Origin: Cellulomonas sp. KRMCY2
GTDB taxonomy: Bacteria; Actinomycetota; Actinomycetes; Actinomycetales; Cellulomonadaceae
Assembly: GCF_000526515.1 (NCBI RefSeq)
Contig: NZ_JAGF01000001.1
Location: forward strand, 2,728,001-2,792,000
Direction of reading: 5' to 3'
Length of the DNA: 64,000 nucleotides
A model generated the notes under the pieces. It had not been told where the DNA came from. It did no database searches and worked only from the letters and a program-made list of their open reading frames with translations. The stretch's first letter is position 1. Each line of letters starts with the position of its first letter. Positions 40,569 through 58,457 of this stretch are shown here, in pieces. The translations under genes were made by a program, and so were the position numbers.

Positions 40569-40602
40569 GTCGCCCGTCCGGACCAGGAGAGGAGGAAAGG
40601 GC

Positions 40603-41786: not shown

Positions 41787-42818
41787 TCAGGCGCCGAGGG
41801 CGGTGGAGCCGCGGACCACGAGGCGGCAGGGCATGGTCTCCACGCCGGTCGTGGTGGTGCCGCTGATCGCGTCGACGAGGAGCTGGGCGGCGCGGCGGCC
41901 GAGCATCTCGAAGTTCATGTCGATGCTGGTCAGGGGTGGGCGGGCGCCGGAGGTCATGATGTGCCAGTTGTCGAAGCCCATGACCGCGACCTGGGCCGGG
42001 ACGTCGATGCCGCGGTCGCGCAGGACGTCCAGGACGCCGCGGGCGATCTGGTCGCTGCCGCACAGGATCGCGTCGACGTCCGGGCTCTGGTCGAGCAGGG
42101 TGTGGGTCGCGGCGCGGCCCCAGGCCTCGGTCCAGCTGCCGAACCGGACCGTCGCCCCGGCCAGGTCCAGACCGGCGGCGGTCAGGGCGGCCAGGGCGCC
42201 CTTGGCGCGGTCCTGGGCGGCGGAGTACTGCACCTCACCGGAGATGTGGGCGATCCGGCGGCGGCCGGTGGCCACCAGGTGCTCGACGGCCAGGGCTCCG
42301 GCGTTGACGTTGTCGGGGATCACCGAGGCGTCGTGGGGGTCGGTCGAGGGGGCGTAGGCGTAGACGACCGGGATCGGCAGCCGGCCCAGCGTGGTCCGGG
42401 GATCGGTGTTGGTGCCGACCACGATCAGGCCGTCGACGCGCCGGCCGAGCAGGGCGCGCAGGTGGTGCTGCTCACGGATCGCGTCCTCGCGTGCGTCGCA
42501 CAGCAGGACCGACATCTTCCCGGCGCCGAACGCGTCCTCGGCGCCCATCAGGATCGGCAGGCTGAACCGGCCGACCAGGTCGTTGGTCAGCAGCCCGATC
42601 GTCCCGGTCTGCCCGGCGAGGATCGCCTGGGCCAGGGAGTTGGGTGTGAACGAGACCCGATCGGCGGCCTCGATCACCCGGCGCCGGGTCTCGGGGTGCA
42701 CGTTGGCCCGCCCGTTCAGCGCCTTGGAGGCCGTGGCGACCGAGACCCCGGCCAGCGTCGCGACATCACGCAGGGTCGGTGTCCGCGGTCGGCTCGGCAC
42801 GCCCTCGACGACGCTCAC
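41787..42818 (-). CDS. LacI-family repressor, paralogue 1
   Basis: 343 residues: an N-terminal LacI HTH (PTLRDVATLAGVSVATASKA, hinge PNSLAQAI) and a periplasmic-binding-like sugar sensor (LLTNDLVGRFSLPILMGAED, CGSDQIARGVLDVLRDRGID, DNWHIMTSG). GTG 42818 has GGAGGGGG upstream. By my alignment it differs from the LacI gene at 57186-58217 at only 11 residues, all outside the HTH, so both should bind the same operator. It is divergent from the SDR operon, whose promoter carries CGAAACCGATTTCG. The inducer is probably the sugar handled by cluster 2. Confidence 0.9.
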   Translation of the reverse strand: MSVVEGVPSRPRTPTLRDVATLAGVSVATASKALNGRANVHPETRRRVIEAADRVSFTPNSLAQAILAGQTGTIGLLTNDLVGRFSLPILMGAEDAFGAGKMSVLLCDAREDAIREQHHLRALLGRRVDGLIVVGTNTDPRTTLGRLPIPVVYAYAPSTDPHDASVIPDNVNAGALAVEHLVATGRRRIAHISGEVQYSAAQDRAKGALAALTAAGLDLAGATVRFGSWTEAWGRAATHTLLDQSPDVDAILCGSDQIARGVLDVLRDRGIDVPAQVAVMGFDNWHIMTSGARPPLTSIDMNFEMLGRRAAQLLVDAISGTTTTGVETMPCRLVVRGSTALGA

Positions 42819-42929
42819 GAACCCCCTCCATCCGATGTCCTGCTCCGGCACAGATCCACGGCCATCGTAGTCGGACGTCTCCCAGAGCCACGCTGCCGGA
42901 TCCGACGACCAGCCGTCGGTGCTGACGTG

Positions 42930-42958
42930 TTGACGCGCCCCGCGGCCGGTGCTAACTT
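42930..42958 (+). promoter_or_regulatory. Predicted promoter of the SDR/aldo-keto reductase operon
   Basis: TTGACG (42930-42935), 17 bases, TAACTT (42953-42958). It is followed at once by the LacI-type operator and then by a leader of about 200 bases. Confidence 0.65.
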
Positions 42959-42960
42959 AA

Positions 42961-42974
42961 CGAAACCGATTTCG
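42961..42974. promoter_or_regulatory. LacI-type operator, copy 1
   Basis: CGAAACCGATTTCG is a palindrome with a central CG, the usual form for LacI-family sites. It sits at the transcription start of the promoter at 42930, where binding would block initiation. Its complement recurs with one change at 46004-46017. Confidence 0.7.
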
Positions 42975-43114
42975 GGCTTTCACGATCGGCGCTTCGGCGT
43001 CCGGGTCTGATGCTGCACGATCGAGTGGTTCCCCCGACGGGGGGAGGCCGGCGTCGGTGCCCGGCCTCAGGAGGCCGTGGGCCCCGCACGAACGATGCGT
43101 ACTCGAGGGAAGCC

Positions 43115-43171
43115 ATGACACCGACGGACAGCTCGGCCAGGATCGCTGCGACCCGGGAGGCGCGGTCATGA
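43115..43171 (+). CDS. Possible 18-residue leader ORF overlapping the SDR start
   Basis: ATG at 43115 with GAGGGA upstream encodes MTPTDSSARIAATREARS. Its stop overlaps the SDR start codon (ATGA, 43168-43171). It may couple translation or be incidental. Confidence 0.3.
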   Translation: MTPTDSSARIAATREARS

Positions 43172-44034
43172 CCGGCCGGGTGGCAGTCACCGGGGCAACC
43201 GGAAAGCTCGGGCGCGCCGTCGTCGCCGACCTGCTGGCCCACGGGTGGGACGTCCTGTCGATCGACCGGATGCGGCCGGTCGGCTTCGACGGTGAGTTCG
43301 TCGCCGCCGACCTGACGGACCACGCCCAGGTGCTCGAGATCCTGACCGGCGGCGTCGACGAGCACCCGGGAGCGCTCGACGCGCTGGTCCACCTGGCGGC
43401 GATCCCGGCCCCCGGCATCGTGACCAACTCGGCGACCTTCGCGAACAACGCCGCAGCGTCGTGGAACGTGTTCAACGCGGCGCGCGCGGCCAGGATCCGC
43501 AACGTCGTGTGGGCCTCGAGCGAGACCGTGCTCGGCCTGCCGTTCGACGTCGCGCCGCCCTACGTGCCGGTGGACGAGGAGTACCGCGGACGGCCCGAGA
43601 CGACGTACTCGCTCGTCAAGGCGCTCGAGGAGGAGATGGCGCACCACCTGTGCCGGTGGGACCCGCAGCTGAAGATGATCGGGCTGCGCTTCTCCAACGT
43701 GATGGAGCCGGGTGACTACGCCGCCTTCGCGTCGTTCGACGCCGACGCCCAGCTGCGCAAGTGGAACCTGTGGGCCTACATCGATGCCCGGGACGGGGCT
43801 CAGGCCGTGCGCCGCGCCCTGGACCACGACGCACCCGGCCTCGACGTGTTCGTCATCGCCAACGCCGACACCGTGATGAGCCGGTCGAGCGGAGAGCTCG
43901 TCGCCGAGGTCTACCCGGGCGTCGAGGTCCGCAAGGAGCTCGGCGAGCACGAGACGCTGCTGTCGATCGACAAGGCGCGTCGGGTCCTCGGCTACGAGCC
44001 GGAGCACTCGTGGCGGGACCGCGCCTCCTGGTAG
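43168..44034 (+). CDS. NAD(P)-dependent epimerase/dehydratase family protein (extended SDR)
   Basis: 288 residues. The cofactor motif VTGATGKLGRAVV is at the N-terminus. VWASSETVLGLPF carries the catalytic-type Ser and TYSLVKALEEE the YxxxK pair. The pattern resembles uronate/aldose dehydrogenases and UDP-sugar epimerases. Given the lactonase and sugar-acid enzymes in the same block, oxidation of a free sugar to a lactone is a reasonable guess. The ATG at 43168 has GGGAGG 7 bases upstream. It is first in an operon with the aldo/keto reductase, under the LacI operator. Confidence 0.8.
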   Translation: MTGRVAVTGATGKLGRAVVADLLAHGWDVLSIDRMRPVGFDGEFVAADLTDHAQVLEILTGGVDEHPGALDALVHLAAIPAPGIVTNSATFANNAAASWNVFNAARAARIRNVVWASSETVLGLPFDVAPPYVPVDEEYRGRPETTYSLVKALEEEMAHHLCRWDPQLKMIGLRFSNVMEPGDYAAFASFDADAQLRKWNLWAYIDARDGAQAVRRALDHDAPGLDVFVIANADTVMSRSSGELVAEVYPGVEVRKELGEHETLLSIDKARRVLGYEPEHSWRDRASW

Positions 44035-44089
44035 GGCTCCTCGGCGCACGGCACGCACGACCGGGACCATGACGGGGAAGGCAACCTCC

Positions 44090-45061
44090 ATGCAGTACAC
44101 GAAGCTGGGCCGGACCGGCCTGGACGTCTCGCGGATCGCGCTCGGCTGCATGAGCTACGGGGAGCCGACGCGAGGCGGCCACGCGTGGACCCTCGACGAG
44201 GAGAGCTCGCGGCCCTTCATCCGGCAGGCGCTCGACGCCGGCATCACGTTCTTCGACACGGCGAACGTCTACTCCGACGGGACGAGCGAGGAGATCGTCG
44301 GGCGGGCGCTGGCCGAGATGGGTCGACGTGACGAGCTCGTGATCGCCACCAAGGTGCACGGCCGGATGCGACCGGGGCCCAACGGTGCCGGGCTCTCCCG
44401 CAAGGCGATCATGACCGAGATCGACCAGAGCCTGCGCCGGCTCGGCACCGACTACGTCGACCTGTACCAGATCCATCGATGGGACCCGACGACGCCGGTC
44501 GAGGAGACCATGGAGGCGCTGCACGACGTCGTCCGCTCGGGCAAGGCCCGGTACATCGGCGCGTCGTCGATGCACGCCTGGCAGTTCGCCAAGGCCCAGT
44601 ACACCGCCGACCTGCACGGCTGGACCCGGTTCGCCACGATGCAGCCGCACTACAACCTGCTCTACCGCGAGGAGGAGCGGGAGATGCTGCCGTTCTGCCT
44701 CGACCAGGGTGTCGGTGTGATCCCGTGGAGCCCGCTGGCACGCGGCCGTCTGGCGCGGCCCTGGGACGTCACCACCGCGCGCAGCGAGACCGACGAGTTC
44801 GGCAAGCACCTGTACCTCGACGAGGACGAGACCATCGTCCAGGCGGTCGCCGAGGTCGCAGCAGCCCGAGACGTTCCGCAGGCCCAGGTCGCACTGGCGT
44901 GGATGCTGGCCCAGCCGGCGGTCACGGCACCGATCGTCGGTGCGACCAAGCCGCACCACCTGGCGGACGCGGTCGCCGCGCTCGATCTGACCCTGACCGG
45001 CGCCGAGCTCGAGAGCCTCGGGCGCCCGTACACCGTGCGCCCGATCGCCGGCTTCAGCTGA
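44090..45061 (+). CDS. Aldo/keto reductase
   Basis: 323 residues, an (alpha/beta)8 NADP-dependent oxidoreductase. The tetrad is visible: Asp and Tyr in FFDTANVYSDG, Lys in VIATKVHG and His in LYQIHRWDPTT. NADP-site residues are in GATKPHHLADAVAAL. The ATG at 44090 (MQYTKLGRTGL) is preferred over ATG 44069 because GGGGAAGG lies about 9 bases upstream. It follows the SDR gene by 55 bases. It could reduce an aldehyde or oxidise an aldose in the cluster 2 pathway. Confidence 0.85.
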   Translation: MQYTKLGRTGLDVSRIALGCMSYGEPTRGGHAWTLDEESSRPFIRQALDAGITFFDTANVYSDGTSEEIVGRALAEMGRRDELVIATKVHGRMRPGPNGAGLSRKAIMTEIDQSLRRLGTDYVDLYQIHRWDPTTPVEETMEALHDVVRSGKARYIGASSMHAWQFAKAQYTADLHGWTRFATMQPHYNLLYREEEREMLPFCLDQGVGVIPWSPLARGRLARPWDVTTARSETDEFGKHLYLDEDETIVQAVAEVAAARDVPQAQVALAWMLAQPAVTAPIVGATKPHHLADAVAALDLTLTGAELESLGRPYTVRPIAGFS

Positions 45062-45067
45062 CGTCCG

Positions 45068-45083
45068 CCGGGCGAGCGCCCGG
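45068..45083. terminator. Bidirectional terminator candidate
   Basis: CCGGGC-GAGC-GCCCGG hairpin, extending to a 7-bp stem, between the convergent reductase and TauE-like genes. Confidence 0.45.
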
Positions 45084-45084
45084 G

Positions 45085-45852
45085 TTACGCCATGAGCAGG
45101 TACGCCGCTGACAGGACCGTCAGGGCAAGGACGAGGCGGTCGAAGAGCCTCTGGTCGATCCGCCGCGCCAGGGGCCGGCCGGCCAGTGCGCCGATGACGA
45201 TCGCCGGCGCCAGGAGCAGGTCGAGCTGCAGCGACTCGAGGCTGATCAGGCCGAGGGACACCGAGAACGGCGCCTTGGCGACGTTGACGGCGAAGAAGAA
45301 CCACGCCGTCGTGCCGAGGAACCTGCTCATCGAGAACCCGGCTGCGAGCAGGTACAGGGACATCACCGGACCGCCGGCGTTGGCGACCATCGTCGTGAAG
45401 CCCGCCAGGGCGCCGTAGCTGCTGGTCTCGAACCGCCCGGCCCCACCCGGCCGCTCGCGTGCTGCCGGGCGGGCGCGGGCACGGCGCACGAAGGTCACGG
45501 CGACGAGCAGCAGGAGGATCACCCCGATGACGCGCCGCACGGTGGTGTCCCCGGCGACCGCCAGGAACAGCGTGCCGAGCGCGACCCCGGCGAGAACCGC
45601 GGGCACCAGCCGGCGCAGCACCGGCCAGTCGGCATGGGCGCGATAGGTCCACACCGCGAAGAGGTCCCCAAGGATCAGCAGGACGAGCAGCACCCCGGTG
45701 GACGCCCTGGCCGGGAGCACGGCCGCGAAGACGGCGACGGTGATGGTGGCCGCACCGGGCACGGCGGTCTTGCTCAGCCCCAGCAAGGCTGCCGCGAGGG
45801 CGAGCAGGGTCAGGTCGGGCAGCGACAGACCCAGCAGCGCGAACGGAGGCAC
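45085..45852 (-). CDS. TauE/SafE family membrane permease
   Basis: About 255 residues with seven or eight hydrophobic segments and the two-fold TauE/SafE pattern (LAAALLGLSKTAVPGAATI; GALAGFTTMVANAGGPVMSL). Family members export or import sulfite, sulfoacetate or other small organic anions. The start is uncertain: GTG 45852 or GTG 45903, neither with a clear ribosome site. It is on the opposite strand from the rest of cluster 2, so a link is possible (export of an acid by-product) but unproven. Confidence 0.8.
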   Translation of the reverse strand: MPPFALLGLSLPDLTLLALAAALLGLSKTAVPGAATITVAVFAAVLPARASTGVLLVLLILGDLFAVWTYRAHADWPVLRRLVPAVLAGVALGTLFLAVAGDTTVRRVIGVILLLLVAVTFVRRARARPAARERPGGAGRFETSSYGALAGFTTMVANAGGPVMSLYLLAAGFSMSRFLGTTAWFFFAVNVAKAPFSVSLGLISLESLQLDLLLAPAIVIGALAGRPLARRIDQRLFDRLVLALTVLSAAYLLMA

Positions 45853-45971
45853 GTGCGCAGCGTGCCACCGGCGGCCGTCCCGGGGTCGAGCGATCTTGCG
45901 CACTGGTCGGTCGTCGAGCGCGGGTCCGAGCGCCGGATGCGAGCGCTAACATCACAACTCCGTAACGACCC

Positions 45972-46001
45972 TTGACGTGGCTGCCCCGGAGCCTGTTAAT
46001 T
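45972..46001 (+). promoter_or_regulatory. Predicted promoter of ABC transporter 2
   Basis: TTGACG (45972-45977), 17-18 bases, then GTTAAT/TTAATT (45995-46001). The LacI-type operator starts three bases later, the same arrangement as at 42930-42974. Confidence 0.6.
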
Positions 46002-46003
46002 GA

Positions 46004-46017
46004 CGAAATCGGTTTCC
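46004..46017. promoter_or_regulatory. LacI-type operator, copy 2
   Basis: CGAAATCGGTTTCC matches the complement of the operator at 42961-42974 at 13 of 14 positions and lies at the expected transcription start. Confidence 0.7.
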
Positions 46018-46084
46018 GTAGTTTTCGATCTCACCGTAGAGATCGACTGCGGATCGACGTCGAGGCCCAACGAAGGAGCCACGC

Positions 46085-47401
46085 ATGACCACCCACCCCA
46101 ACCGCCGCAGGACTGCCGTCCTGCTCTCCCTCGCGCTCCCCCTCTCGATCGCGGCCTGCAGCTCGGACGCCACCCCCAGCGGCGACAGCACCGAGAGCAG
46201 CGCCGGCGGATCTGCGGACGACGGCACCGAGCTGACCATGTGGGTCCGCTCCGCGACGGACGACTTCAGCACGCGACTCGTCGACGAGTACAACAAGACC
46301 CACGAGAACCAGGTCACCCTGACCGTCATCCCGAACGACAACTACCTGCAGAAGGTCGGCACGGCCGCCGGCGCCGGTGCGCTGCCGGACATCCTCGCGG
46401 CCGACGTCGTCTACTCGCCGAACTACACCAGCCAGAACCTGTACCTGGACATCACCGACCGCGTCGCGGCGCTCGACTACGCGGGCGACCTCGCGCCGTC
46501 GCACCTCGCAGCGGGCAGCTGGGAGGACAAGCTCTACGCGGTGCCTCACAAGCTGGACTCGTCCGTCATGTACTACAACAAGGACCTGTTCACCGCCGCC
46601 GGGCTCGACCCCGAGAAGCCGCCGACGAACTTCGCGGAGGTCCTCGAGTACTCCCGTGCGATCACCGCGCTGGGTGACGGCACGTACGGCTTCCAGCTGG
46701 CCGGCAACTGCGGCGGCTGCGGCGTCTACTCGCTCTTCCCCTACGCCTGGGCCTCCGGGGCCGAGGTGCTCTCTGCAGACGGTCTGACGGCCGACTTCGA
46801 CAACGACGTGTTCCGGGAGATCTTCGCCCTGTACCGGACCATGTGGGAGGAGGAGCTGGTTCCGTCCAACAACCTGACCGAGGACGGGTCGACCTGGCAG
46901 ACCGCCTTCATCGCCGGTGACATCGGCATCCTTCCGCACGGCTCGCCGATCGCCGGTGACCTGATGAAGGAGGCGGACTTCGAGTGGGGCGTCACGTCCC
47001 TGATGGCGCCGGACGGCTCGGCGACCTCGACCTTCGTCGGCGGCGACGTCGCCGGCATCACGGCCACCTCGGACAACGCCGACGCGGCATGGAACTTCCT
47101 CGAGTGGACGCTGAGCGAGGAGGCCCAGGTCGAGATCATCGCGAAGAACGGTGACCTGCCCGGCCGTCTCGACCTCACGGACAACCAGTACACCGCCTCC
47201 GACCCGCGTCTGAAGTTCATCGCCGACGGCCTGGTCAACGGTGAGACCCCGTTCGCCCTTCCCTTCGGTGACCTGTTCAACAACCCGAACGGGCCCTGGG
47301 TCGAGCTGATGCGTGGTGCGATCTTCGGTGACGACCCGGAGGGCGCCATCACGGACGGCCAGGTGAAGATCCAGGCCGGGCTCGACGCAGCCAACAGCTA
47401 G
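46085..47401 (+). CDS. Sugar ABC transporter substrate-binding lipoprotein (CUT1)
   Basis: 438 residues. Twin Arg/Lys N-terminus, hydrophobic stretch and lipobox (LSIAAC, Cys about residue 24), then a Ser/Gly/Asp linker. The mature region has LTMWVRSATDDFSTRLVDEY, GALPDILAADVVYSPN, DSSVMYYNKDLFTAAGLDPE and DAAWNFLEWTLSEEAQ, typical of family-1 binders. AAGGAG precedes the ATG. It is first in an operon with two permeases and the GH127 enzyme and probably binds arabinose-containing oligosaccharides. Confidence 0.9.
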   Translation: MTTHPNRRRTAVLLSLALPLSIAACSSDATPSGDSTESSAGGSADDGTELTMWVRSATDDFSTRLVDEYNKTHENQVTLTVIPNDNYLQKVGTAAGAGALPDILAADVVYSPNYTSQNLYLDITDRVAALDYAGDLAPSHLAAGSWEDKLYAVPHKLDSSVMYYNKDLFTAAGLDPEKPPTNFAEVLEYSRAITALGDGTYGFQLAGNCGGCGVYSLFPYAWASGAEVLSADGLTADFDNDVFREIFALYRTMWEEELVPSNNLTEDGSTWQTAFIAGDIGILPHGSPIAGDLMKEADFEWGVTSLMAPDGSATSTFVGGDVAGITATSDNADAAWNFLEWTLSEEAQVEIIAKNGDLPGRLDLTDNQYTASDPRLKFIADGLVNGETPFALPFGDLFNNPNGPWVELMRGAIFGDDPEGAITDGQVKIQAGLDAANS

Positions 47402-47427
47402 GCCCGAGCGAACCCGAGAGGTCTGCA

Positions 47428-48363
47428 ATGACGGAGATCCTGACCCCCGTGGCAGAGCCGGCTGTCCGGCACCTGCCACGGGGGAACAGGTCGGCGCTCT
47501 CGCGCCGGCCCCTGACCGGAATGCTGTTCGTCGCGCCGACAGCGCTCATCGTGCTGGTGCTGTTCCTGGTGCCGCTCGGGATCCTGCTGTACATGTCCTT
47601 CACGGACTACCCGTTGCTGGGCGCGCCCACGCTCAACGGGATCGACAACTACACGGCCATCCCCGACGACGACCTCTTCCTGGGCGCCATCAAGTTCACG
47701 CTCGTCTACACCGCCGTGACCACCGTCGTGATCTTCCTCGTCTCGTTCGTCCTGGTCGCCATCTCGAACAGCACACGCAGGTTCTCGAAGGTGTACCGGA
47801 CGGCGTACTTCCTGCCGTACGTGGTGGGTACGGCCGCTGCGAGCCTGATGTGGTTCATCAACTACGACACGGTCCTGGGCGTCTACAACGACCTGCTGCT
47901 TCGGGTGGGGCTCATCGACGAGCCGTTCGCCTTCCTCGCTTCGGAGACCCCGGCGTTCTGGTCGGTGATCGCCCTGGTCGTCTGGAAGTTCGTCGGCTTC
48001 CAGGTCCTGGTCCTGCTGGTCGGGCTCCAGTCGGTCCCGCGGGAGCTGTACGAGGCGGCGCGCGTCGACGGCGCGAACCGCCTCCAGCAGCTGCGCTTCA
48101 TCACGCTCCCGTACCTGACGCCGACGATCGCCCTGCTGTTCATCCTCTCGGTCACGGGCTCCTTGCTCGCGTTCGACCAGTTCCTGATCCTGACCAAGGG
48201 TGGGCCGGACAACAGCACGATCAGCCTGGTCTACGCCATCTACAACACGGCGTTCCAGACCTTCGACCTCGGACGCGCGGCAGCGCTGTCGATCATCCTG
48301 CTGCTGGCCCTGATCATCCTCAACGGTGTGCAGCTGAGGCTGCTGCGCCGCCGCGACGCCTGA
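47428..48363 (+). CDS. Sugar ABC transporter permease (CUT1, MalF-type)
   Basis: 311 residues, six helices beginning MLFVAPTALIVLVLFLVPLG. The EAA loop is LYEAARVDGANRLQQLRFI. LILTKGGPDNST is the usual conserved loop near the C-terminus. It is 26 bases after the binder gene. Confidence 0.9.
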   Translation: MTEILTPVAEPAVRHLPRGNRSALSRRPLTGMLFVAPTALIVLVLFLVPLGILLYMSFTDYPLLGAPTLNGIDNYTAIPDDDLFLGAIKFTLVYTAVTTVVIFLVSFVLVAISNSTRRFSKVYRTAYFLPYVVGTAAASLMWFINYDTVLGVYNDLLLRVGLIDEPFAFLASETPAFWSVIALVVWKFVGFQVLVLLVGLQSVPRELYEAARVDGANRLQQLRFITLPYLTPTIALLFILSVTGSLLAFDQFLILTKGGPDNSTISLVYAIYNTAFQTFDLGRAAALSIILLLALIILNGVQLRLLRRRDA

Positions 48364-48378
48364 CGCGAAAGGACCACC

Positions 48379-49233
48379 ATGTCGACTCGCACCACGGCAC
48401 GCTCCGCCGCCGCAAGCGTCTCCTTCCACCTCGTCAGCAGCATCCTGGCGATCGCCTTCCTCTTCCCGCTCCTGTGGGCGATCATCAACTCGCTCAAGAC
48501 CCCGGAGGAGGCCAACCAGGCGCCGCCGACGCTCTTCCCGACGTCGCTGTCGCTCGGCAACTTCCAGAACCTGATGGACTACGGCTCCGGCCTGCCCGTC
48601 TACTTCTGGAACAGCATCCTGATCTCGTTCCTGACGGTCGTCGGCACCGTCGTCGTCTCGGTCCTGGGTGGCTACGGCTTCGCCCGGTTCGACTTCTGGG
48701 GCAAGAAGCACCTGTTCGTCGCGGTCGTCGCGATCCTCATGGTTCCGTACGCGACGATCCTGCTGCCGCTGTACATCCTGCTGGGCAAGCTCGGTCTGCA
48801 GAACTCGCTGATCGGCCTGAGCCTGGTGCTCGTCATGTTCCAGCTGCCCTTCAGCATCCTCATGATGCGCAACTCGTTCGAGTCGGTCCCGCGGGAGCTC
48901 GAAGAGGCGGCACTGGTCGACGGGTGCAGCAACGTCGGCGCCCTGCGGCACATCTCGCTGCGCATGGTGTCGCCCGGCATCGTCACCGTTGCCCTCTTCG
49001 CGTTCCTGGCGTCCTGGAACGAGTTCCTCGCACCGCTGATCTTCCTCAACGACGCGAGCAAGTTCACCCTGCCGATCATGCTCGTCAACGTCCGGTCGGG
49101 GTCCTACGGCGCCATCGACTACGGCGCCCTGCAGGCCGGCGTCGTGATCGCGATGGTCCCCGCCCTCGTCCTGTACCTCGTGCTGCAGCGGTACTACGTC
49201 AACGGGTTGCTCAACGGCGCACTCAAGTCCTGA
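48379..49233 (+). CDS. Sugar ABC transporter permease (CUT1, MalG-type)
   Basis: 284 residues, six helices (SFHLVSSILAIAFLFPLLWA first). The EAA loop is ELEEAALVDGCSNVGALRHI, and the protein ends VNGLLNGALKS. AAGGA precedes the ATG. No ATP-binding gene follows, so the pair must use an ATPase encoded elsewhere. Confidence 0.9.
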   Translation: MSTRTTARSAAASVSFHLVSSILAIAFLFPLLWAIINSLKTPEEANQAPPTLFPTSLSLGNFQNLMDYGSGLPVYFWNSILISFLTVVGTVVVSVLGGYGFARFDFWGKKHLFVAVVAILMVPYATILLPLYILLGKLGLQNSLIGLSLVLVMFQLPFSILMMRNSFESVPRELEEAALVDGCSNVGALRHISLRMVSPGIVTVALFAFLASWNEFLAPLIFLNDASKFTLPIMLVNVRSGSYGAIDYGALQAGVVIAMVPALVLYLVLQRYYVNGLLNGALKS

Positions 49234-49301
49234 GCCTCGTCCCCTGGCGGGCCCGCTGCTCGCCGCCTCGTTCTCCGTCCTCGATCCTTAGGAGCATCTC
49301 C

Positions 49302-51272: not shown

Positions 51273-51280
51273 CTCGTCGG

Positions 51281-51317
51281 CCGGCCAGGCCTGGCACCAC
51301 GTGCCCGGCCTGGCCGG
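51281..51317 (+). terminator. Strong intercistronic hairpin after the GH127 gene
   Basis: CCGGCCAGGCC (51281-51291) pairs with GGCCTGGCCGG (51307-51317); inside it GGCAC pairs with GTGCC around a CAC loop. That gives about 16 paired bases with one mismatch. There is no T-run, so it may terminate partly or stabilise the upstream message. Confidence 0.65.
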
Positions 51318-51355
51318 TCGTCCCGAAGGTCCGTGGACGACGAAGGGATCGTGTC

Positions 51356-52477
51356 GTGGCTGAGCCGGTGCGGTTGGGAATCGCAGGACTGGGGTTCGGG
51401 GCCGAGTTCATCCCGATCTACCGTGACCATCCCGATGCGCAGATGTCGGCCATCTGCCGGCGCAGCGAGGAGTCGCTCGACCGCATCGGGGACGCCTTCG
51501 GCATCGAGCGCCGGTTCACGAGCTTCGACGACATGATCGCCGACCCCGAGCTCGACGCGGTGCACATCAACACGCCCATCCCGAACCACGCGGCGCAGTC
51601 GATCGCGGCGCTGCGGGCCGGCAAGCACGTCGCCTGCACCGTCCCGATGGCCACGACGCTCGACGAGTGCCGCGCGATCGTCGACGCCGCCCGGGAGTCG
51701 GGCAAGAACTACATGATGATGGAGACGACCGTCTTCTCCCGCGAGTTCCTGCACGTCAAGGAGCTGGTGCGCAACGGGACGGTCGGCCGGCTCCAGTTCC
51801 TGCGGGGGGCGCACCAGCAGGAGATGGCGGGCTGGCCCGGCTACTGGGAGGGCCTGCCCCCGATGCACTACGCGACCCATGCGATCAGCCCGCTGCTGGC
51901 TCTTGCCGGCGGCGCGCTGGCCGAGTACGTCGTGTGCCTGGGGTCCGGACGGATCTCGCCGGAGCTGACCGCGAAGTACGGCTCACCGTTCGCGGTCGAG
52001 AGTGCGCTGGTCAAGGTGCGGGACTCGGACCTGAGCGCGGAGATCACGCGGTCGCTGTTCGAGACGGCGCGGCAGTACGTGGAGAGCTTCTCGGTCTACG
52101 GCGACCGGTCCTCGTTCGAGTGGGAGCAGGTGCAGGGCAGTGGCCCGGTGCTCTTCGCCGGTGAGGACGCCGAACGCATCGAGATCCCCGACTACGCCCA
52201 CCTGCTGCCCACACCGATCCAGCGGTACACGACCAAGGGTGTCTACGACGAGGAGCACGCCCACCTGTCGTTCCAGCAGGGCAGCGGGCACGGCGGGTCG
52301 CACCCCCACCTCGCGCACGAGTTCGTCCGCAGCATCGTCGAGGAGCGAGCGCCGCTGGTCGACGCGGTCACCGCGGCGAACTGGACGTCCGTCGGCATCT
52401 GCGCGCACGAGTCGGCGATGGCCGGCGGGACCCGCGTCGACCTCCCTGTCCTGGACGAGGGCGGAGCCGCCCGATGA
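51356..52477 (+). CDS. Gfo/Idh/MocA family NAD(P)-dependent oxidoreductase
   Basis: 373 residues. N-terminal Rossmann fold (LGIAGLGFGAEFIP; AVHINTPIPNHAAQSIAAL; GKHVACTVPMATTLDE, with the EKP-type catalytic Lys apparently replaced by TVP). The C-terminal domain includes MHYATHAISPLLALAGG. The EKP-Lys substitution is seen in some family branches and makes a classical dehydrogenase mechanism uncertain. GTG 51356 has AAGGGA 8 bases upstream. It overlaps the following epimerase by 4 bases (ATGA). It may oxidise or epimerise the sugar freed by GH127. Confidence 0.85.
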   Translation: MAEPVRLGIAGLGFGAEFIPIYRDHPDAQMSAICRRSEESLDRIGDAFGIERRFTSFDDMIADPELDAVHINTPIPNHAAQSIAALRAGKHVACTVPMATTLDECRAIVDAARESGKNYMMMETTVFSREFLHVKELVRNGTVGRLQFLRGAHQQEMAGWPGYWEGLPPMHYATHAISPLLALAGGALAEYVVCLGSGRISPELTAKYGSPFAVESALVKVRDSDLSAEITRSLFETARQYVESFSVYGDRSSFEWEQVQGSGPVLFAGEDAERIEIPDYAHLLPTPIQRYTTKGVYDEEHAHLSFQQGSGHGGSHPHLAHEFVRSIVEERAPLVDAVTAANWTSVGICAHESAMAGGTRVDLPVLDEGGAAR

Positions 52478-53337
52478 GCCGGTGGCCGATCGCCGCCAGC
52501 ACGTTCATCTGGCACTCCCCGCTGACCACGGCGATCCTCGAGTCGCGGTTGCCGCAGCTCGCGGCGTGGGGGTTCGACGCCGTCGAGCTGCCGCTCGACC
52601 AGCCGGGGGACTGGGACGTCGAACGCTGCACCGCGCTCCTCGCCGAGCACGGCCTGGCCTCCGTGGTGTGCACCGTGTTCTCGCCCGGCCGTGAGCTCGC
52701 CGCGGCCCCGGCGCAGACGCAGGAGGACACCCTCGACTACGTGCGCGCGGCGATCGACGTCGCGGCTGCCCAGGGCAGCGGTCTGGTGATCGGACCGACC
52801 TACTGCTCGGTCGGCCGGACGTGGCGGCTCGACGCGGACGACCGCCGTCAGGTGGGCCGCGAGCTGCGCGAGAACTACCGCAGGCTCATCGACCACGCCG
52901 GTCCGCTGGGCGTCCGACTGGCCCTCGAACCGCTCAACCGGTACGAGACGAGCGTGTTCAACACGACCGAGCAGGTGCTCGACGTGATCGGCGACCTGGA
53001 CGCGGACGTCATCGGCCTCGGCCTCGACACGTATCACATGAACATCGAGGAGCGGTCGTTCGGTGACACGTTGCGGCTCGCAGGGGACCGCCTCTGGCAC
53101 CTGCAGGTCTGCGGCAACGACCGTGGCGCACCGGGCGGCGACCACACGCCGTGGGACGAGGTGTTCGCGACCCTGCAGGAGATCGGCTACCGGGGCATGC
53201 TCGGGATCGAGTCGTTCACGCCGGAGAACGAGTCGATGGCCAAGGCGGCGTCGATCTGGCGCCCCCTGGCCGTGTCACCGGACGCGCTCGCCGTCGAGGG
53301 TCTGGCGTTCCTGCGGCAGGCGACCGGTCCGGTATGA
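52474..53337 (+). CDS. Sugar phosphate isomerase/epimerase family protein (ketose 3-epimerase-like)
   Basis: 287-residue TIM barrel. The metal and catalytic set of D-tagatose/D-psicose/L-ribulose 3-epimerases is readable: Glu in LALEPLNRYETSVFN, Asp and His in LGLDTYHMNIEE, His and Arg in LWHLQVCGNDRGAPGGD, and Glu in LGIESFTPEN. It likely epimerises a free ketose at C3 with Mn or Co. The ATG overlaps the upstream dehydrogenase stop, so they are coupled. The last codons and stop are duplicated as a 20-bp tandem repeat. Confidence 0.85.
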   Translation: MSRWPIAASTFIWHSPLTTAILESRLPQLAAWGFDAVELPLDQPGDWDVERCTALLAEHGLASVVCTVFSPGRELAAAPAQTQEDTLDYVRAAIDVAAAQGSGLVIGPTYCSVGRTWRLDADDRRQVGRELRENYRRLIDHAGPLGVRLALEPLNRYETSVFNTTEQVLDVIGDLDADVIGLGLDTYHMNIEERSFGDTLRLAGDRLWHLQVCGNDRGAPGGDHTPWDEVFATLQEIGYRGMLGIESFTPENESMAKAASIWRPLAVSPDALAVEGLAFLRQATGPV

Positions 53338-53360
53338 GGGCGACCGGTCCGGTGTGAGCC
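53321..53360 (+). repeat. 20-bp tandem duplication across the epimerase stop codon
   Basis: CGACCGGTCCGGTATGAGGG (53321-53340) is followed by a copy differing at three bases (53341-53360). It duplicates the last codons and stop of the epimerase gene without extending the protein. Confidence 0.75.
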
Positions 53361-53363
53361 GGC

Positions 53364-53666
53364 TCAGCCCGTGAAGGCCTGGGCGTCGAGGAACTCGACC
53401 TCGACGGACTCGATGTGCTGGCGGCGATCGGCCAGGAAGGTGGTCATGTGGGGATACCGCTCATGAGCCTCGAACGCTGCGCGGTCCCGGTAGAGCTCGT
53501 AGAACACGCGGCGCAGCGGTTCGCCGGGCACGGTGTGCACGGCGTAGACGAGGGTCCCGGGCTCCGCAACCTTGATGGCCTCCAGCGTGCGCAGCGCGAG
53601 CTCGTCGAAAGCCTCCGCGTGGCCGGGCCGAAGGATGTGGTTCACCACGAGTGCCAGACCCGCCAT
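53364..53666 (-). CDS. Antibiotic-biosynthesis-monooxygenase (ABM) domain protein, putative quinol monooxygenase
   Basis: 100 residues, the normal size of single-domain ABM proteins. LALVVNHILRPGHAEAFDEL, FYELYRDRAAFEAHERYPH and MTTFLADRR follow the family pattern (ferredoxin-like fold, dimeric). The ATG at 53666 has GGAGG four bases upstream. The frame is open to 53924, and in-frame ATG 53693 exists, but the extension runs through an 18-bp DNA repeat. It is convergent with the epimerase. YgiN-type activity or an unrelated small-molecule role is possible. Confidence 0.75.
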   Translation of the reverse strand: MAGLALVVNHILRPGHAEAFDELALRTLEAIKVAEPGTLVYAVHTVPGEPLRRVFYELYRDRAAFEAHERYPHMTTFLADRRQHIESVEVEFLDAQAFTG

Positions 53667-53700
53667 CACGCCTCCATCGTCGTCCTGCGTCATCGTAGAG

Positions 53701-53799
53701 CCTGCACCGCTCGCAGGACCTGCACCGCTCGTAGGACCTGCACCGCTCGTAGGACCTGCACCGCTCGCAAGGCCTGCACCGCTCGCAAGACCTGCACCG
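53701..53799. repeat. 18-bp minisatellite, about 5.5 copies
   Basis: CCTGCACCG begins at 53701, 53719, 53737, 53755, 53773 and 53791, an exact 18-base period. The unit is CCTGCACCGCTCGTAGGA with variants at the last five bases. It lies between the divergent ABM and SMP-30 genes, just ahead of the SMP-30 ribosome site. It is open in the minus frame as a GAG(L/P)(A/T)S hexapeptide repeat. Confidence 0.9.
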
Positions 53800-53823
53800 T
53801 GACCACCCGGAAGGACTCCTCCC

Positions 53824-54777
53824 GTGCTTGAGACCGCCCCTGAGACCATCGCGACGGACTTCGAGGTGCTCGACGACCGCTTCCGCCGGTATGGAGGAGA
53901 CGCACGGACCGAGCGGATCTTCACCGGTGGTCGATGGCTCGAGGGCCCGGCCTGGTTCCCGGCGGGGCGCTACCTCGTGTTCAGCGACATCCCGAACGAC
54001 CGGATCATGCGCTGGGACGAGACGACGGGCTGCGTGGGGGTGCTGCGGCGCGACGGCGGCTATGCCAACGGTCACACTGTCGACCGGCAGGGCCGGCTGG
54101 TCAGCTGTGAGCACGGCGGCCGCCGGGTCACCCGCACCGAGCACGACGGCTCGGTCACCGTGCTCGCCGACCGCCTCGCCGACGGTCGACGGCTCAACAG
54201 CCCCAACGACGTGGTGGAGCACTCGGACGGCTCGATCTGGTTCACCGACCCGACCTACGGCATCGACACGGACTACGAGGGGCACCGGGCGGCCAGCGAG
54301 ACGGACGGCTGCCACGTCTACCGGGTCGACCCGGTCGACGGCACGGTCCGGGTGGTGGCCGACGACCTGGCGATGCCGAACGGGCTCGCGTTCTCGGCCG
54401 ACGAGCAGCAGCTGTACATCGTCGACTCCCATCGCAAGCACGTCCGGCGGTTCGACGTCGCCGCCGACGCGGGCCTGTCGGGCGGTGAGGTGATCGCCGA
54501 GTGCGACGCGGGGACGTTCGACGGGCTACGGCTCGACGACGTCGGTCGCCTCTGGCTGGCCGCGCACGACGGGCTGCACTGCATCGACCCGGACGGCACC
54601 CTGATCGGCAAGCTGCGGCTGCCGGAGGTCACGTCGAACCTGACGTTCGGCGGGCCCCAGCGCAACCACCTGTTCATCACCGCGACGACCTCGGTCTACG
54701 CGCTGCGGGTGAACGTCACCGGGGTGCGCCGTCCCGACCGGCCGTGGACCGGGCCGGCCGGCGGACCGGGTCGCTGA
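53824..54777 (+). CDS. SMP-30/gluconolactonase family lactonase
   Basis: 317 residues, six-bladed beta-propeller. The divalent-metal ligands are visible: Glu in LEGPAWFPAGRYLVFSD, Asn in LNSPNDVVEHSDGSIWFTD and Asp in TFDGLRLDDVGRLW; MPNGLAFSADEQQLYIVDS is a further family motif. It should hydrolyse a sugar lactone to the aldonic acid in the cytoplasm. GTG 53824 has AAGGA 8 bases upstream. It fits between a sugar dehydrogenase and sugar-acid enzymes in cluster 2. The minisatellite lies directly upstream. Confidence 0.9.
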   Translation: MLETAPETIATDFEVLDDRFRRYGGDARTERIFTGGRWLEGPAWFPAGRYLVFSDIPNDRIMRWDETTGCVGVLRRDGGYANGHTVDRQGRLVSCEHGGRRVTRTEHDGSVTVLADRLADGRRLNSPNDVVEHSDGSIWFTDPTYGIDTDYEGHRAASETDGCHVYRVDPVDGTVRVVADDLAMPNGLAFSADEQQLYIVDSHRKHVRRFDVAADAGLSGGEVIAECDAGTFDGLRLDDVGRLWLAAHDGLHCIDPDGTLIGKLRLPEVTSNLTFGGPQRNHLFITATTSVYALRVNVTGVRRPDRPWTGPAGGPGR

Positions 54778-54780
54778 CGG

Positions 54781-55710
54781 TCAGGGCCGTCCGGTCGACC
54801 GTCGCGTCGGCGCCACGACCTTGATCACCGCGGAGTCGTCCGCTGCCCCGAGGCCCTGGGCCTGCCCGAGCAGGTAGAGCTGTTCAGCGGCTGCGGCGAG
54901 CGGGGACGGCAGCCCTGCGGCGCGGGTTGCCCGGCCGACGATGCCCATGTCCTTGACGAAGATGTCCAGCCGACTGAGCACCTCGGCCCCCGCCTCGGTG
55001 TAGGCCTGGAGGATCCGCGGGCCGCGGTTGGCGAGCATGAACGAGCCGGCCGCACCGGCTCCCAGTGCCTCGAGAGTCCTGGCCGGGTCGAGACCGAGCG
55101 CATCGGCCAGGGCCAGGGCCTCTGCGGCGGCGGCGATGTGCACACCGCACAGCAGCTGGTTGACCGTCTTGAGCGCCTGACCGTCGCCGGGCCGGTCACC
55201 GACCACGGTGAGCGTCGATGCCAGGAGCTCCAGGACCGGCCGTGCCCGCTCGAGGGCGGCGGGCTCCGCGCCGACGACGATCAGCAGGTCGCCGGCACCT
55301 GCCCGGGCCGGGCCGCCCGACAGCGGCGCATCGACCAGGGCCACGCCGCGCGCGGCCAGACCGGCGACCGTCGCGGGGATCGCCTCGGTGCCGACGGTGC
55401 TGGTCAGGATCACCACGGCGCCGGTTCGCAGGCTCGTGGCCACGCCGTCGGGACCGAACAGGACGTCGTCGAGCTGGGTTCCGCTGCGCACCGCGACCAG
55501 CACCGCGTCGGCACCGGTGACGGCCTCGCGCGCCGAGCTGCTGGGCACGACGCCGGCGTCGGCGGCGAGCCGCAGCCGGGCGGCGTCGATGTCGAACCCG
55601 TGCACCGTGAGCCCGGTGACGAGCCGGGTCGCCATCGGCAGGCCCATCGCGCCCAGGCCCAGGACGGCGACGGTGTAGCCGGGGGTTCGGGGATCTGCCT
55701 CGTGCGGCAT
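54781..55710 (-). CDS. ltnD: 3-hydroxyacid dehydrogenase family protein (L-threonate/4-carbon acid dehydrogenase-like)
   Basis: 309 residues. NAD site VAVLGLGAMGLPMATRL, substrate loop DAPLSGGPARAGAGDL, and catalytic Lys in GQALKTVNQLLCGVHIA. The C-terminal helical domain includes LDIFVKDMGIVGRATRAAG. Partnership with the four-carbon acid sugar kinase upstream matches LtnD/DenD-type pathways that oxidise L-threonate or D-erythronate to a 2-keto acid. ATG 55710 has CAGGAG upstream, 25 bases after the kinase. The aldolase (OtnC) and isomerase (OtnI) of that pathway are not in this window. Confidence 0.8.
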   Translation of the reverse strand: MPHEADPRTPGYTVAVLGLGAMGLPMATRLVTGLTVHGFDIDAARLRLAADAGVVPSSSAREAVTGADAVLVAVRSGTQLDDVLFGPDGVATSLRTGAVVILTSTVGTEAIPATVAGLAARGVALVDAPLSGGPARAGAGDLLIVVGAEPAALERARPVLELLASTLTVVGDRPGDGQALKTVNQLLCGVHIAAAAEALALADALGLDPARTLEALGAGAAGSFMLANRGPRILQAYTEAGAEVLSRLDIFVKDMGIVGRATRAAGLPSPLAAAAEQLYLLGQAQGLGAADDSAVIKVVAPTRRSTGRP

Positions 55711-55735
55711 GGTGGTTCTCCTGCAGGTCGACGGG

Positions 55736-57172
55736 TCAGGGCATCGTGCTGAGCGTGCGCACCACGGCGGCCAGGGCCGCGTCGTCCCCGACGTTGCCGG
55801 CGAACACGACGTAGGGGATCCCCGCGGCCGGGCCGTCCACCGGCTCCCACAGGGAGACGATGCCGGGCAGCATCGGGCCCCGGACCACGGCACGGCGGAT
55901 CTCCAGGCCGTGCGCGGCGACGTCGGAGGACGTGATACCGCCCTTGGCGACGACGAACCGTGGCCGGTGGAGCGCGATCGTCCGACGCACGACCTCGACG
56001 ACGGCTGCCGAGACGGCCCGCGCGATGCGCAGGCTCTCGGCCGGATCGTCGGCCCGGACCAGCAGCCTGCTGGTGTGCAGGATCACGTCCGTCCGGGTCA
56101 GCGCTTCCGCGACGGCCGAGGCGGTCGCCGCCACGTGTGCGCCGGCAGTGGCCGGGTCCAGCAGGAGCTCGACCTGGAGCTCGACCACCGCCGCCGAGGC
56201 GTGCCGAGCGGTCAGCACGGCCAGCTGCCGGGTCGTCGTCCCGACATGGGAGCCGACCACGATCAGCCCGCCACCGGGCCCCGCCCCGGCGCACGCCTCC
56301 GCGCGGCACAGGGGCGGTCGTTCCCGCTGCCCGATGCGGGCCCGGACGAAGGGTGGACCGACCCGGTACAGCAGTCGCATGCCCTGGGCCTCGGCCAGTG
56401 CCAGGCCCAGGGCCAGAGCCCGCAGGTCGTCCTCGGTGACGATGTCGACCACGATCGGGGTCGAGTCCGTGGCCGGGGCGACGGCCGCGGCGATGCCCGT
56501 CGCCCCGCCCCGGACGACGGCCAGGTCCAGGACGATGACGTCCGACGCGGCGAACCGCCCGGCGGACTTCTCCTCGACGTACCTGGCCAGCTCCGAGCTC
56601 CGGTAGCCGAAGCTGGCGTCCTGCGCGTACTCCGTGTCGGCGACGGGGGTCAGGACGCCGTCGGCGCGCATGTAGTGCACCCCGCCGATGGTGATCCGGC
56701 CCGCGTCGGGGAACGCAGGGACGATCACCACGCCGTCGGTCGGCAGACCGGCCACCTCGAGCAGGGTCGCCGCGATGACGTCCGGCTCGAGGGGGTAGTG
56801 CCCGCGCAGGGTGGAGTCGCTGCGACTGACGAAGCCCAGCGTGGTGCCGGTGGCCGCCGCCGCGGCGAGCGCTGTGGTCACGACGTCCCGCGTCCTGGCC
56901 GCCGCCTCGGTGGCGTCCAGGCTGCGCGTGTTGGTCAGCACGTACACCGCCGGCGCGGTCGTGGTCCCGATGCGGTGGGTGAAGGCCCAGACGAAGTCCT
57001 CGACCTCCCATCGCAGGAGCACCGGGAGGTCCGCGACCGACTGGGTGCCGGTCGGGTCGTCGTCCAGCACGACCAGGATGCGGGGCGCTGCCGCGACCGA
57101 GGCCGCCACCGCCGCCGGATCGACCGGGACCCCGGGCGGGAACCCGGCCAGGAGCTCAGCCTCGAGTGCCAC
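55736..57172 (-). CDS. otnK: Four-carbon acid sugar kinase family protein (OtnK-like, DUF1537)
   Basis: 478 residues. VVLDDDPTGTQSVADLPVLL is the N-terminal substrate-binding signature, followed by YVLTNTRSLDATEA and FVSRSDSTLRGHYP. The nucleotide-binding C-terminal domain has LIVVGSHVGTTTRQ, KGGITSSDVAAHGL and FAGNVGDDAALAAV. It would phosphorylate a 3-keto or 2-keto four-carbon acid. GTG 57172 starts 13 bases after the LacI stop with no clear ribosome site, so translation may depend on coupling. It is the middle gene of a LacI-kinase-dehydrogenase operon. Confidence 0.85.
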   Translation of the reverse strand: MALEAELLAGFPPGVPVDPAAVAASVAAAPRILVVLDDDPTGTQSVADLPVLLRWEVEDFVWAFTHRIGTTTAPAVYVLTNTRSLDATEAAARTRDVVTTALAAAAATGTTLGFVSRSDSTLRGHYPLEPDVIAATLLEVAGLPTDGVVIVPAFPDAGRITIGGVHYMRADGVLTPVADTEYAQDASFGYRSSELARYVEEKSAGRFAASDVIVLDLAVVRGGATGIAAAVAPATDSTPIVVDIVTEDDLRALALGLALAEAQGMRLLYRVGPPFVRARIGQRERPPLCRAEACAGAGPGGGLIVVGSHVGTTTRQLAVLTARHASAAVVELQVELLLDPATAGAHVAATASAVAEALTRTDVILHTSRLLVRADDPAESLRIARAVSAAVVEVVRRTIALHRPRFVVAKGGITSSDVAAHGLEIRRAVVRGPMLPGIVSLWEPVDGPAAGIPYVVFAGNVGDDAALAAVVRTLSTMP

Positions 57173-57185
57173 CGGCGGTCGCCGC

Positions 57186-58217
57186 TCAGGCGCCGAGGGC
57201 GGTGGAGCCGCGGACCACGAGGCGGCAGGGCATGGTCTCCACGCCGGTCGTGGTGGTGCCGTTCATGGCGTCGACGAGGAGCTGGGCGGCGCGGCGGCCG
57301 AGCATCTCGAGGTTCATGTCGATGCTGGTCAGGGGTGGGCGGGCGCCGGAGGTCATGATGTGCCAGTTGTCGAAGCCCATGACCGCGACCTGACCGGGGA
57401 CGTCGATGCCGCGGTCGCGCAGGACGTCCAGGACCCCGCGGGCGATCTGGTCGCTGCCGCACAGGATCGCGTCGACGTCCGGGTTCTGGTCGAGCAGGGT
57501 GTGGGTCGCGGCGCGGCCCCAGGCCTCGGTCCAGCTGCCGAACCGGACCGTCGCCCCGGCCAGGTCCAGACCGGCGGCGGTCAGGGCGGCCAGGGCGCCC
57601 TTGGCGCGGTCCTGGGCGGCGGAGTACTGCACCTCACCGGAGATGTGGGCGATCCGGCGGCGGCCGGTGGCCACCAGGTGCTCGACGGCCAGGGCTCCGG
57701 CGTTGACGTTGTCGGGGATCACCGAGGCGTCGTGGGGGTCGGTCGAGGGGGCGTAGGCGTAGACGACCGGGATCGGCAACCGGCCCAGCGTCGTCCGGGG
57801 GTCCGTCGTGCTGCCGACCACGATCAGGCCGTCGACGCGCCGGCCGAGCAGGGCGCGCAGGTGGTGCTGCTCACGGATCGCGTCCTCGCGTGCGTCGCAC
57901 AGCAGGACCGACATCTTCCCGCCGCCGAACGCGTCCTCGGCGCCCATCAGGATCGGCAGGCTGAACCGGCCGACCAGGTCGTTGGTCAGCAGCCCGACCG
58001 TCCCGGTCTGCCCGGCGACGATCGCCTGGGCCAGGGAGTTGGGTGTGAACGAGACCCGATCGGCGGCCTCGATCACCCGGCGCCGGGTCTCGGGGTGCAC
58101 GTTGGCCCGCCCGTTCAGCGCCTTGGAGGCCGTGGCGACCGAGACCCCGGCCAGCGTCGCCACATCACGCAGGGTCGGTGTCCGCGGTCGGCTCGGCACA
58201 TTCTCGACGACGCTCAC
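57186..58217 (-). CDS. LacI-family repressor, paralogue 2
   Basis: 343 residues, the same length as the LacI gene at 41787-42818 and differing at 11 positions (for example Gly/Asn at residue 6 and Phe/Leu in SIDMNFEML). The HTH region is identical. GTG 58217 (a second GTG is at 58220) follows GGAGGGGG. The likeness begins and ends almost exactly at the gene ends. It leads an operon with the four-carbon acid kinase and dehydrogenase. Degenerate operators at 58281 and 58340 suggest autoregulation. Confidence 0.9.
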   Translation of the reverse strand: MSVVENVPSRPRTPTLRDVATLAGVSVATASKALNGRANVHPETRRRVIEAADRVSFTPNSLAQAIVAGQTGTVGLLTNDLVGRFSLPILMGAEDAFGGGKMSVLLCDAREDAIREQHHLRALLGRRVDGLIVVGSTTDPRTTLGRLPIPVVYAYAPSTDPHDASVIPDNVNAGALAVEHLVATGRRRIAHISGEVQYSAAQDRAKGALAALTAAGLDLAGATVRFGSWTEAWGRAATHTLLDQNPDVDAILCGSDQIARGVLDVLRDRGIDVPGQVAVMGFDNWHIMTSGARPPLTSIDMNLEMLGRRAAQLLVDAMNGTTTTGVETMPCRLVVRGSTALGA

Positions 58218-58280
58218 CACGCTTCCCCCTCCGCTCGTCCCGGTCTGCCTGCCATCGGTGCGGACCTCACCGTCTGGTAA

Positions 58281-58294
58281 CGAAAACGATGTCA
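58281..58294. promoter_or_regulatory. Degenerate LacI-type operator, copy 3
   Basis: CGAAAACGATGTCA matches the 42961 operator at 11 of 14 positions, including the whole left arm and the central CG. It is 64 bases upstream of the LacI paralogue 2 start. Confidence 0.45.
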
Positions 58295-58339
58295 CACAAG
58301 ACGTCAGTTGACCAGTGCCGCCACGCAGCGGAGACGGCA

Positions 58340-58353
58340 AGAAAGTGGTTTCG
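58340..58353. promoter_or_regulatory. Degenerate LacI-type operator, copy 4
   Basis: AGAAAGTGGTTTCG; its complement matches the 42961 operator at 11 of 14 positions. It lies 46 bases from copy 3; a pair could support looping by a tetrameric or dimer-of-dimers repressor. Confidence 0.35.
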
Positions 58354-58457
58354 GAGCGTTTCGTTCTGAGGTGCTGATGGCGACCTGCGGGTCGACGCGG
58401 CGCGCTGTCAGGTGGCCGTCGAGCACGGACCGCTGATCGTCCGCACACCGTCGGCCG

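Follow-up and report, generated by a model that had tools for sequence, protein, structure and literature searches.

Campbell-type integration, in which a single crossover inserts incoming DNA, leaves the homologous gene as direct repeats. Two further kinds of system stand close to the locus considered here: the Bifidobacterium proteins BauR1 and BauR2, predicted to be LacI-family repressors of beta-arabinooligosaccharide use (PMC5928203), and duplicated bacterial genes that undergo concerted evolution, for example rRNA operons (PMC6002687). The locus lies in a stretch of 64,000 nucleotides from Cellulomonas sp. KRMCY2 (contig NZ_JAGF01000001.1), the whole of which we call the window and from whose first letter positions are counted. 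In it, two almost identical LacI-type genes on the minus strand, LacI-A (41787..42818) and LacI-B (57186..58217), bracket a 14-kb block of metabolic genes, block X (43057..57172). We consider it probable that the pair represents the two ends of an integration of this block into a resident lacI gene, that the older operon was lost and that the two copies were later homogenised.

The twin LacI genes and their divided flanks

Both genes are 1032 bp long with a GTG start, and they differ at 23 of the 1032 bases and at 11 of 343 residues (6, 67, 74, 99, 136, 137, 245, 275, 303, 318 and 319). A sequence-only reading of this DNA had described them as equal in length and orientation, with 11 unlike residues, and had called for a nucleotide-level alignment; the alignments bear the description out, and also its remark that the likeness stops almost exactly at the gene ends. 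The blastn match (1012/1035 identical) begins at the start codon and ends 3 bp beyond the stop codon, and the flanks show no significant likeness either upstream (p 0.12) or downstream (p 0.27; 300 shuffles), the best match between the two upstream flanks being an operator-like 16-mer. The genes stand as direct repeats on either side of the block, with a start-to-start distance of 15,399 bp, and loss of the block by recombination between them, as that reading had envisaged, would be plausible.

Repeats as alike as these often give rise to assembly errors, and the sequence-only reading had itself raised a duplicated or collapsed contig. The genome is, however, a single contig of 4,495,232 bp and, because the flanks are unique and the copies differ at 23 bases, misassembly of the pair is unlikely; we give an artefact of this kind almost no credence. 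No further close copy of LacI-A/B was found in the genome, where the next best DNA match covers only 95 bp and the next best protein match is 34% identical. The latter stands among 53 matches to the LacI-A/B protein (E ≤ 0.001), a large LacI complement for a genome of 4.5 Mb.

Both copies carry the helix-turn-helix (HTH) domain PF00356 and the sensor domain PF13377/PF00532 above cut-off, which places them in the LacI/GalR family. The Pfam HTH domain (residues 15-60) is identical in the two, as had been noted, and all 11 differences lie outside it. The earlier assignment of those differences to the arm and the sensor fails for residue 67 (L/V), which is neither; in an alignment to CcpA, this residue lies one past the position of Leu55, which we take to be the hinge-helix leucine that intercalates into the operator. 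Residue 303, which presumably corresponds to F293 in the inducer pocket of E. coli LacI, is F in LacI-A and L in LacI-B. We rejected F303L as a special change, because it is a common alternative: among 103 orthologues, 63 have L and 40 have F.

In Actinotalea soli (A. soli), a member of the same genus, the corresponding loci (L125 and L020, read in reverse) present a native-type order: a GGDEF-EAL gene, BH41, a LacI gene convergent to BH41, a solute-binding protein (SBP) gene, two permease genes, GH127, VIT1, another LacI gene (37%) and an ABC permease gene, the last of which matches window positions 63005-63910 at 82-91% over the available part. The LacI gene is divergent from the SBP-permease-permease-GH127 set. 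The outer gene order of the window is that of A. soli, with block X and a second LacI gene in the middle, and the flanks of the one native-type locus are divided between the two copies. LacI-A, by synteny, alignment and Pfam, has the native downstream side and a block-side upstream region; it keeps BH41 (40942..41772, plus strand), an alpha/beta hydrolase gene (Pfam Abhydrolase) convergent to it, and the GGDEF-EAL gene (30282-32606), whose homologue follows BH41 in A. soli. LacI-B has the block-side downstream region, with an OtnK-like gene 13 bp away, and the native upstream side: a LacI/SBP intergenic region resembling that of A. soli, a fossil of GH127, a VIT1 family gene (59007..59756, plus strand; PF01988) and the further LacI gene. 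A. soli itself has one LacI gene and no block X at its BH41-VIT1 site, a state that does not show block loss.

Direct repeats at the block ends, split native flanks and a relative with one copy and no block are what a single-crossover integration scar would display. The split flanks and the lacI direct repeats point to a block that arrived with a lacI and recombined with the one already in place, the layout being as predicted for such an event. The sequence-only reading had offered either a gene-sized duplication or ongoing gene conversion. A plain gene-sized copy is disfavoured, because the two genes divide between them the native surroundings of what was a single ancestral lacI, an arrangement that an isolated copy leaves unexplained.

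The region upstream of LacI-B (58218..58369, minus strand) was assigned to the native LacI/SBP intergenic region from an alignment to A. soli and a profile match. Positions 58267-58369 are 70% identical to the A. soli intergenic region over 103 bp (E 8.6e-7), and a profile of the intergenic regions of 21 relatives matches at 58380-58280 (E 4.6e-7), as well as upstream of LacI-A (E 4.8e-7) and upstream of the SBP gene of the block (E 5.8e-4). When the operator was excised and the comparison repeated with 20 relatives and 300 shuffles, the regions upstream of LacI-A (p 0.007 on one side and 0.003 on the other) and of LacI-B (p 0.027 and 0/300 shuffles) still resembled the relatives' LacI/SBP regions; the block SBP promoter did not (p 0.53 and 0.23). 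The LacI-B upstream region showed no likeness to that of otnK in G156, the genome with the nearest OtnK.

Next to this region, at 58381..58438 on the plus strand, lies the fossil, about 50 bp of the 3' part of a native GH127 gene recognized by DNA matches to relatives. In all five relatives compared, its identity to GH127 is 78-88% over 44-55 bp, the best match reaching 88% over 52 bp (E 2.6e-13), and at E ≤ 0.01 it matches 16 of 20 relative loci, every time inside GH127, with a second, weaker match elsewhere in L127 and L134; no match at that threshold was found in L130, L141, L142 and L143. A 20-residue reading of the fossil scored 63-69 against nine of the 11 relative loci tried (L124-L127, L129, L131, L133, L136 and L140), 43 and 49 against L141 and L142, 46 against the GH127 of block X and 52 against a GH127 at 1.65 Mb. 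Because a native promoter region and a GH127 fossil remain there, a native-type SBP-to-GH127 set most likely once lay on the right-hand side of LacI-B, from where it was later deleted.

We propose the following course of events. The incoming DNA would have carried block X and a lacI gene of its own, with its upstream region facing the epimerase gene and otnK-ltnD downstream, and this lacI would have recombined within the resident one through one crossover or something equivalent to it. The products would be lacI-A, with a native 3' side and a block 5' side, and lacI-B, with a block 3' side and a native 5' side, as direct repeats around the block. The native SBP-to-GH127 genes would then have been deleted to the right of LacI-B, where the promoter region is observed joined to some 50 bp of GH127, and later gene conversion may have brought the two reading frames to 98% likeness.

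The same final order, LacI-A with the native downstream side and LacI-B with the native upstream side, would also arise if the native lacI open reading frame (ORF) had first been tandem-duplicated and the block, lacking a lacI of its own, inserted later between the copies; no donor lacI is then required. The duplicated unit would have to be close to the bare ORF, as the upstream regions of LacI-A and LacI-B do not align significantly, and the LacI-A upstream region nevertheless resembles the relatives' LacI upstream regions. We regard this history as unlikely.

In 19 of the 20 relative LacI loci read (L124-L143, the exception being L130), GH127 and at least one permease gene are divergent from LacI. 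At one of these loci (L128, in genome G013), a stretch of no more than 20 kb has two adjoining transporter-GH127 clusters and three genes of the LacI type. BH41 was found in six of 11 other genomes searched, and in each of the six whose locus was read, VIT1 lies within about 0.75-8 kb of it. In all five of them other than A. soli (G014, G011, G009, G002 and G017), neither LacI nor GH127 appears at E ≤ 1e-3 in the 0.75-3.3 kb that separate BH41 from the next conserved gene; G009 and G017 have a LacI-GH127 cluster on other contigs, and G011, G002 and G014 have no LacI match at E ≤ 1e-60. Block X was not seen at the BH41-VIT1 site in A. soli or in these five genomes. The gap after BH41 contains 3.2 kb of other DNA in G002 (L210) and 3.3 kb in G017 (L212), and this side may be a site of repeated insertions.

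An F420H(2)-dependent quinone reductase family gene (Nit; 58469..58897, plus strand; PF04075), part of the native right flank in some relatives, adjoins VIT1 in G014 and G017 and was not seen there in A. soli. Two large genes (32695-40664) lie between the GGDEF-EAL gene and BH41 in the window and were not seen there in A. soli; position 35559-40664 is one very long ORF (1701 aa), apparently pyruvate:ferredoxin-oxidoreductase-like by its sequence alone.

Predicted operators and the content of block X

The pattern CGAAANNNNTTTC occurs at three places in the 4.5-Mb genome, all at this locus: between LacI-A and the epimerase-type gene, at the SBP gene and before LacI-B. Scored with a position weight matrix (PWM), the first of these, predicted operator O1 (42960..42975, ACGAAACCGATTTCGG), is the best site in the window (20.5 bits) and the second, O2 (46003..46018, upstream of the SBP gene, ACGAAATCGGTTTCCG), comes next (16.6 bits), whereas the third, O3 (58339..58354, minus strand, CCGAAACCACTTTC), has the exact core pattern and is degenerate (11.5 bits). 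On this scale the best unrelated site in the window reaches 10.6 bits and the 20 training sites 21.5-27.6 bits. A possible further operator near LacI-B (58280..58295, ACGAAAACGATGTCAC) scores 9.4 bits, below the background level; a TTTTCGT element akin to it is present at that place in A. soli and in L129. In a survey of 80 loci, one of which was too short to score, a site with at most one mismatch from CCGAAANCGNTTTC was found upstream of 66 of 79 orthologues, compared with two of 79 in-gene controls, which predicts that the promoter of the adjacent operon has a palindromic operator.

Shared predicted operators of this kind support the earlier proposal that both copies repress the same sites. 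With identical HTH domains, the two repressors would bind O1, O2 and, weakly, O3, and both would hold down the uptake and GH127 genes of the block, an effect that the lacI-B transcript would extend to otnK-ltnD. A pathway sugar would lift the repression, and the 11 residue differences may adjust how each protein responds.

Block X has genes on both strands, assigned with Pfam and NCBIfam. From the LacI-A end these are an NAD-dependent epimerase/dehydratase gene (43057), an aldo-keto reductase gene (44069), a TauE gene (45085, minus strand), the SBP gene (46085) and two permease genes (47428 and 48379) of an ABC importer, GH127 (49353), Gfo/Idh (51341), a TIM-barrel epimerase-like gene (52474), ABM (53364, minus strand), an SMP-30 lactonase gene (53824), an L-threonate-dehydrogenase-like (LtnD-like) gene (54781, minus strand) and a four-carbon acid sugar kinase-like (OtnK-like) gene (55736, minus strand). 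Six listed copies of an 18-bp-spaced tandem repeat occupy 53675-53817, at the start of the ABM gene or ahead of it, and in front of the SMP-30 gene. The block GH127 has the catalytic, middle and C-terminal domains of a GH127 beta-L-arabinofuranosidase (PF07944, PF20736 and PF20737), and the sole NCBIfam model listed for it is that of an aceric acid hydrolase, at 421 against a cut-off of 950 bits. Because the listed NCBIfam scores lie under the curated cut-offs, the substrates of the block are guesses.

Among 219 other genomes of the family, the OtnK-like gene was found in four and the Gfo gene in three (E ≤ 1e-70), and relatives of the epimerase-type gene in 114 (E ≤ 1e-60). Within the genus there is no OtnK or Gfo at E ≤ 1e-70 except a 43% OtnK in G013. 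The nearest OtnK, that of G156 (75%), has upstream of it a gene that is GntR-like, a label taken from its sequence, and no LacI of the LacI-A/B type was found in that genome. The narrow spread of OtnK and Gfo and the state of G156 favour integration, as do the lack of LacI and GH127 in the BH41 gap of five genomes and the confinement of the operator pattern to this locus. A plasmid donor was rejected, the best LacI and OtnK in a plasmid collection being 59.6% and 65.4% identical.

Divergence of the pair and the weight of the integration scenario

One LacI match apiece was found in 10 of 18 other genomes of the genus (E ≤ 1e-60), and a match in 92 of 221 family genomes, our own included (E ≤ 1e-100; at most two candidates scored per genome). 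In a tree of 105 rows, LacI-A and LacI-B group with each other (support 100/100) rather than with separate orthologues, the outcome that the sequence-only reading had taken as the sign of conversion. Their nonsynonymous and synonymous divergences are low (dN 0.017 and dS 0.038), compared with a dS of 0.535-0.749 between LacI-A and its four nearest orthologues (L124-L127). Since the upstream regions of the pair do not align significantly, the low dS counts for integration with subsequent homogenisation.

The 23 differences are clustered (20,000 draws: p 0.00015 for pairs within 6 bp; p 0.001 for seven in 33 bp), and the longest identical tract is also unusual (p 0.028, or 0.0026 when weighted by mutability). 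One island, at 7/33, differs at the level of orthologues, three of which show seven to nine differences per 30-33. By eye, from a column listing against the six nearest orthologues, changes 199, 296, 439, 907 and 954 are private to LacI-B, and 220 and 407 to LacI-A, the remainder being common to some orthologue or ambiguous. The pattern suggests, but does not prove, partial gene conversion homogenising the pair, and, as long as neighbouring changes are counted separately, it favours the conversion half of the earlier proposal.

Several observations weigh against the integration scenario. When changes within 6 bp are merged, 13 events remain and the clustering is gone (p 0.26 and 0.49; weighted, 0.083). 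No crossover point can be named from the differences, because the sites agree mixedly with the A. soli and the G180/G154 orthologues. The 105-row tree places LacI-A/B with G180 and G154 and not with A. soli (99/93), which does not appear to fit a simple vertical history common with A. soli. O3 seems weak or decaying, because its score is little over that of the best unrelated site and under those of the training sites. With operators masked in the window there was no significant profile match for either LacI upstream region, and a masked pairwise test of the upstream regions was negative for all 15 relatives; we judge the masked tests faulty, because the masks broke the alignments. The expected otnK-lacI-epimerase donor order was not found in a limited search of the plasmid collection and the relatives' OtnK, epimerase and Gfo loci that were read. 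The window has no tRNA gene, the 20 window proteins scanned with Pfam include no integrase, att-like sites were sought only through a window repeat listing, and the GC content of the block is host-like (0.705 compared with 0.713-0.715).

As to the placement with G180/G154, its support in a tree of 25 rows is only 81/91 and the approximately unbiased (AU) test leaves A. soli as sister unrejected (p 0.12); because of this, the trees say nothing firm about the origin of LacI-A/B, and a foreign lineage for the LacI coding sequence, with G180/G154 nearest, was not upheld.

The random placement of the differences after merging, together with the low dS, would suit a recent integration with no gene conversion, the source being a very near relative that had a lacI of about 98% identity from the outset. 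Such a history does not account for an island at the between-species level of difference, and no close relative in the genus has OtnK or Gfo at E ≤ 1e-70, the G013 OtnK apart; we think it unlikely.

Two old paralogues, each with its own operon and kept alike by gene conversion only, would require no integration. Each copy does have its own LacI-type upstream region and, besides our own genome, two LacI matches are listed for G032, G070 and G207. The copies of G207 (L130 and L131) are 79.5% identical and lie 37 kb apart, and none of the usual transporter and GH127 neighbours was seen at L130. Old paralogy leaves unexplained why the two copies should share the flanks of one native locus, and is weakened by the synteny with A. 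soli; we hold it to be very improbable. Integration of block X into the resident lacI, followed by loss of the older operon, accordingly stays the reading we prefer.

Proposed operon replacement and comparison with known systems

If this reading is right, the locus lets one follow how one sugar-use operon may have given way to another in a bacterium, in three states of one site: no cluster (five genomes), the older operon (A. soli) and the new block with a fossil of the older operon (the genome studied here). The locus suggests that block exchange can draw its homology from conserved repressor genes and leave regulation intact, and near-identical regulators that bracket gene blocks are a signature to seek in other genomes. 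A more general idea, which we put forward tentatively and doubt as a rule, is that repressor genes are docking handles for the exchange of catabolic blocks, the content of the operon changing around a regulator and a site that remain. Were it true, an incoming block with a resident-like lacI would recombine there and arrive already controlled by matching operators, after which the older structural genes could be shed.

Judged by titles and the starts of abstracts, no such case was found described among the papers listed, which does not prove that none is in print. The closest parallel is Campbell-type integration, with which the window shares a homologous gene at both ends of the insert, in the same orientation, and native flanks split between the copies; it differs in that the event is deduced from a natural genome, that the gene is the repressor of a sugar operon and that the native structural genes were lost afterwards. 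BauR1 and BauR2 are like LacI-A and LacI-B in being predicted LacI-family local repressors of ABC transporter and beta-L-arabinofuranosidase-type genes, whereas block X has extra sugar-acid genes, and the likeness considered here is one of family and gene context (PMC5928203). With concerted evolution of the rRNA-operon type, the pair has in common that copies in one genome are kept alike, although here the copies are a pair of regulator genes and conversion between them is suggested (PMC6002687).

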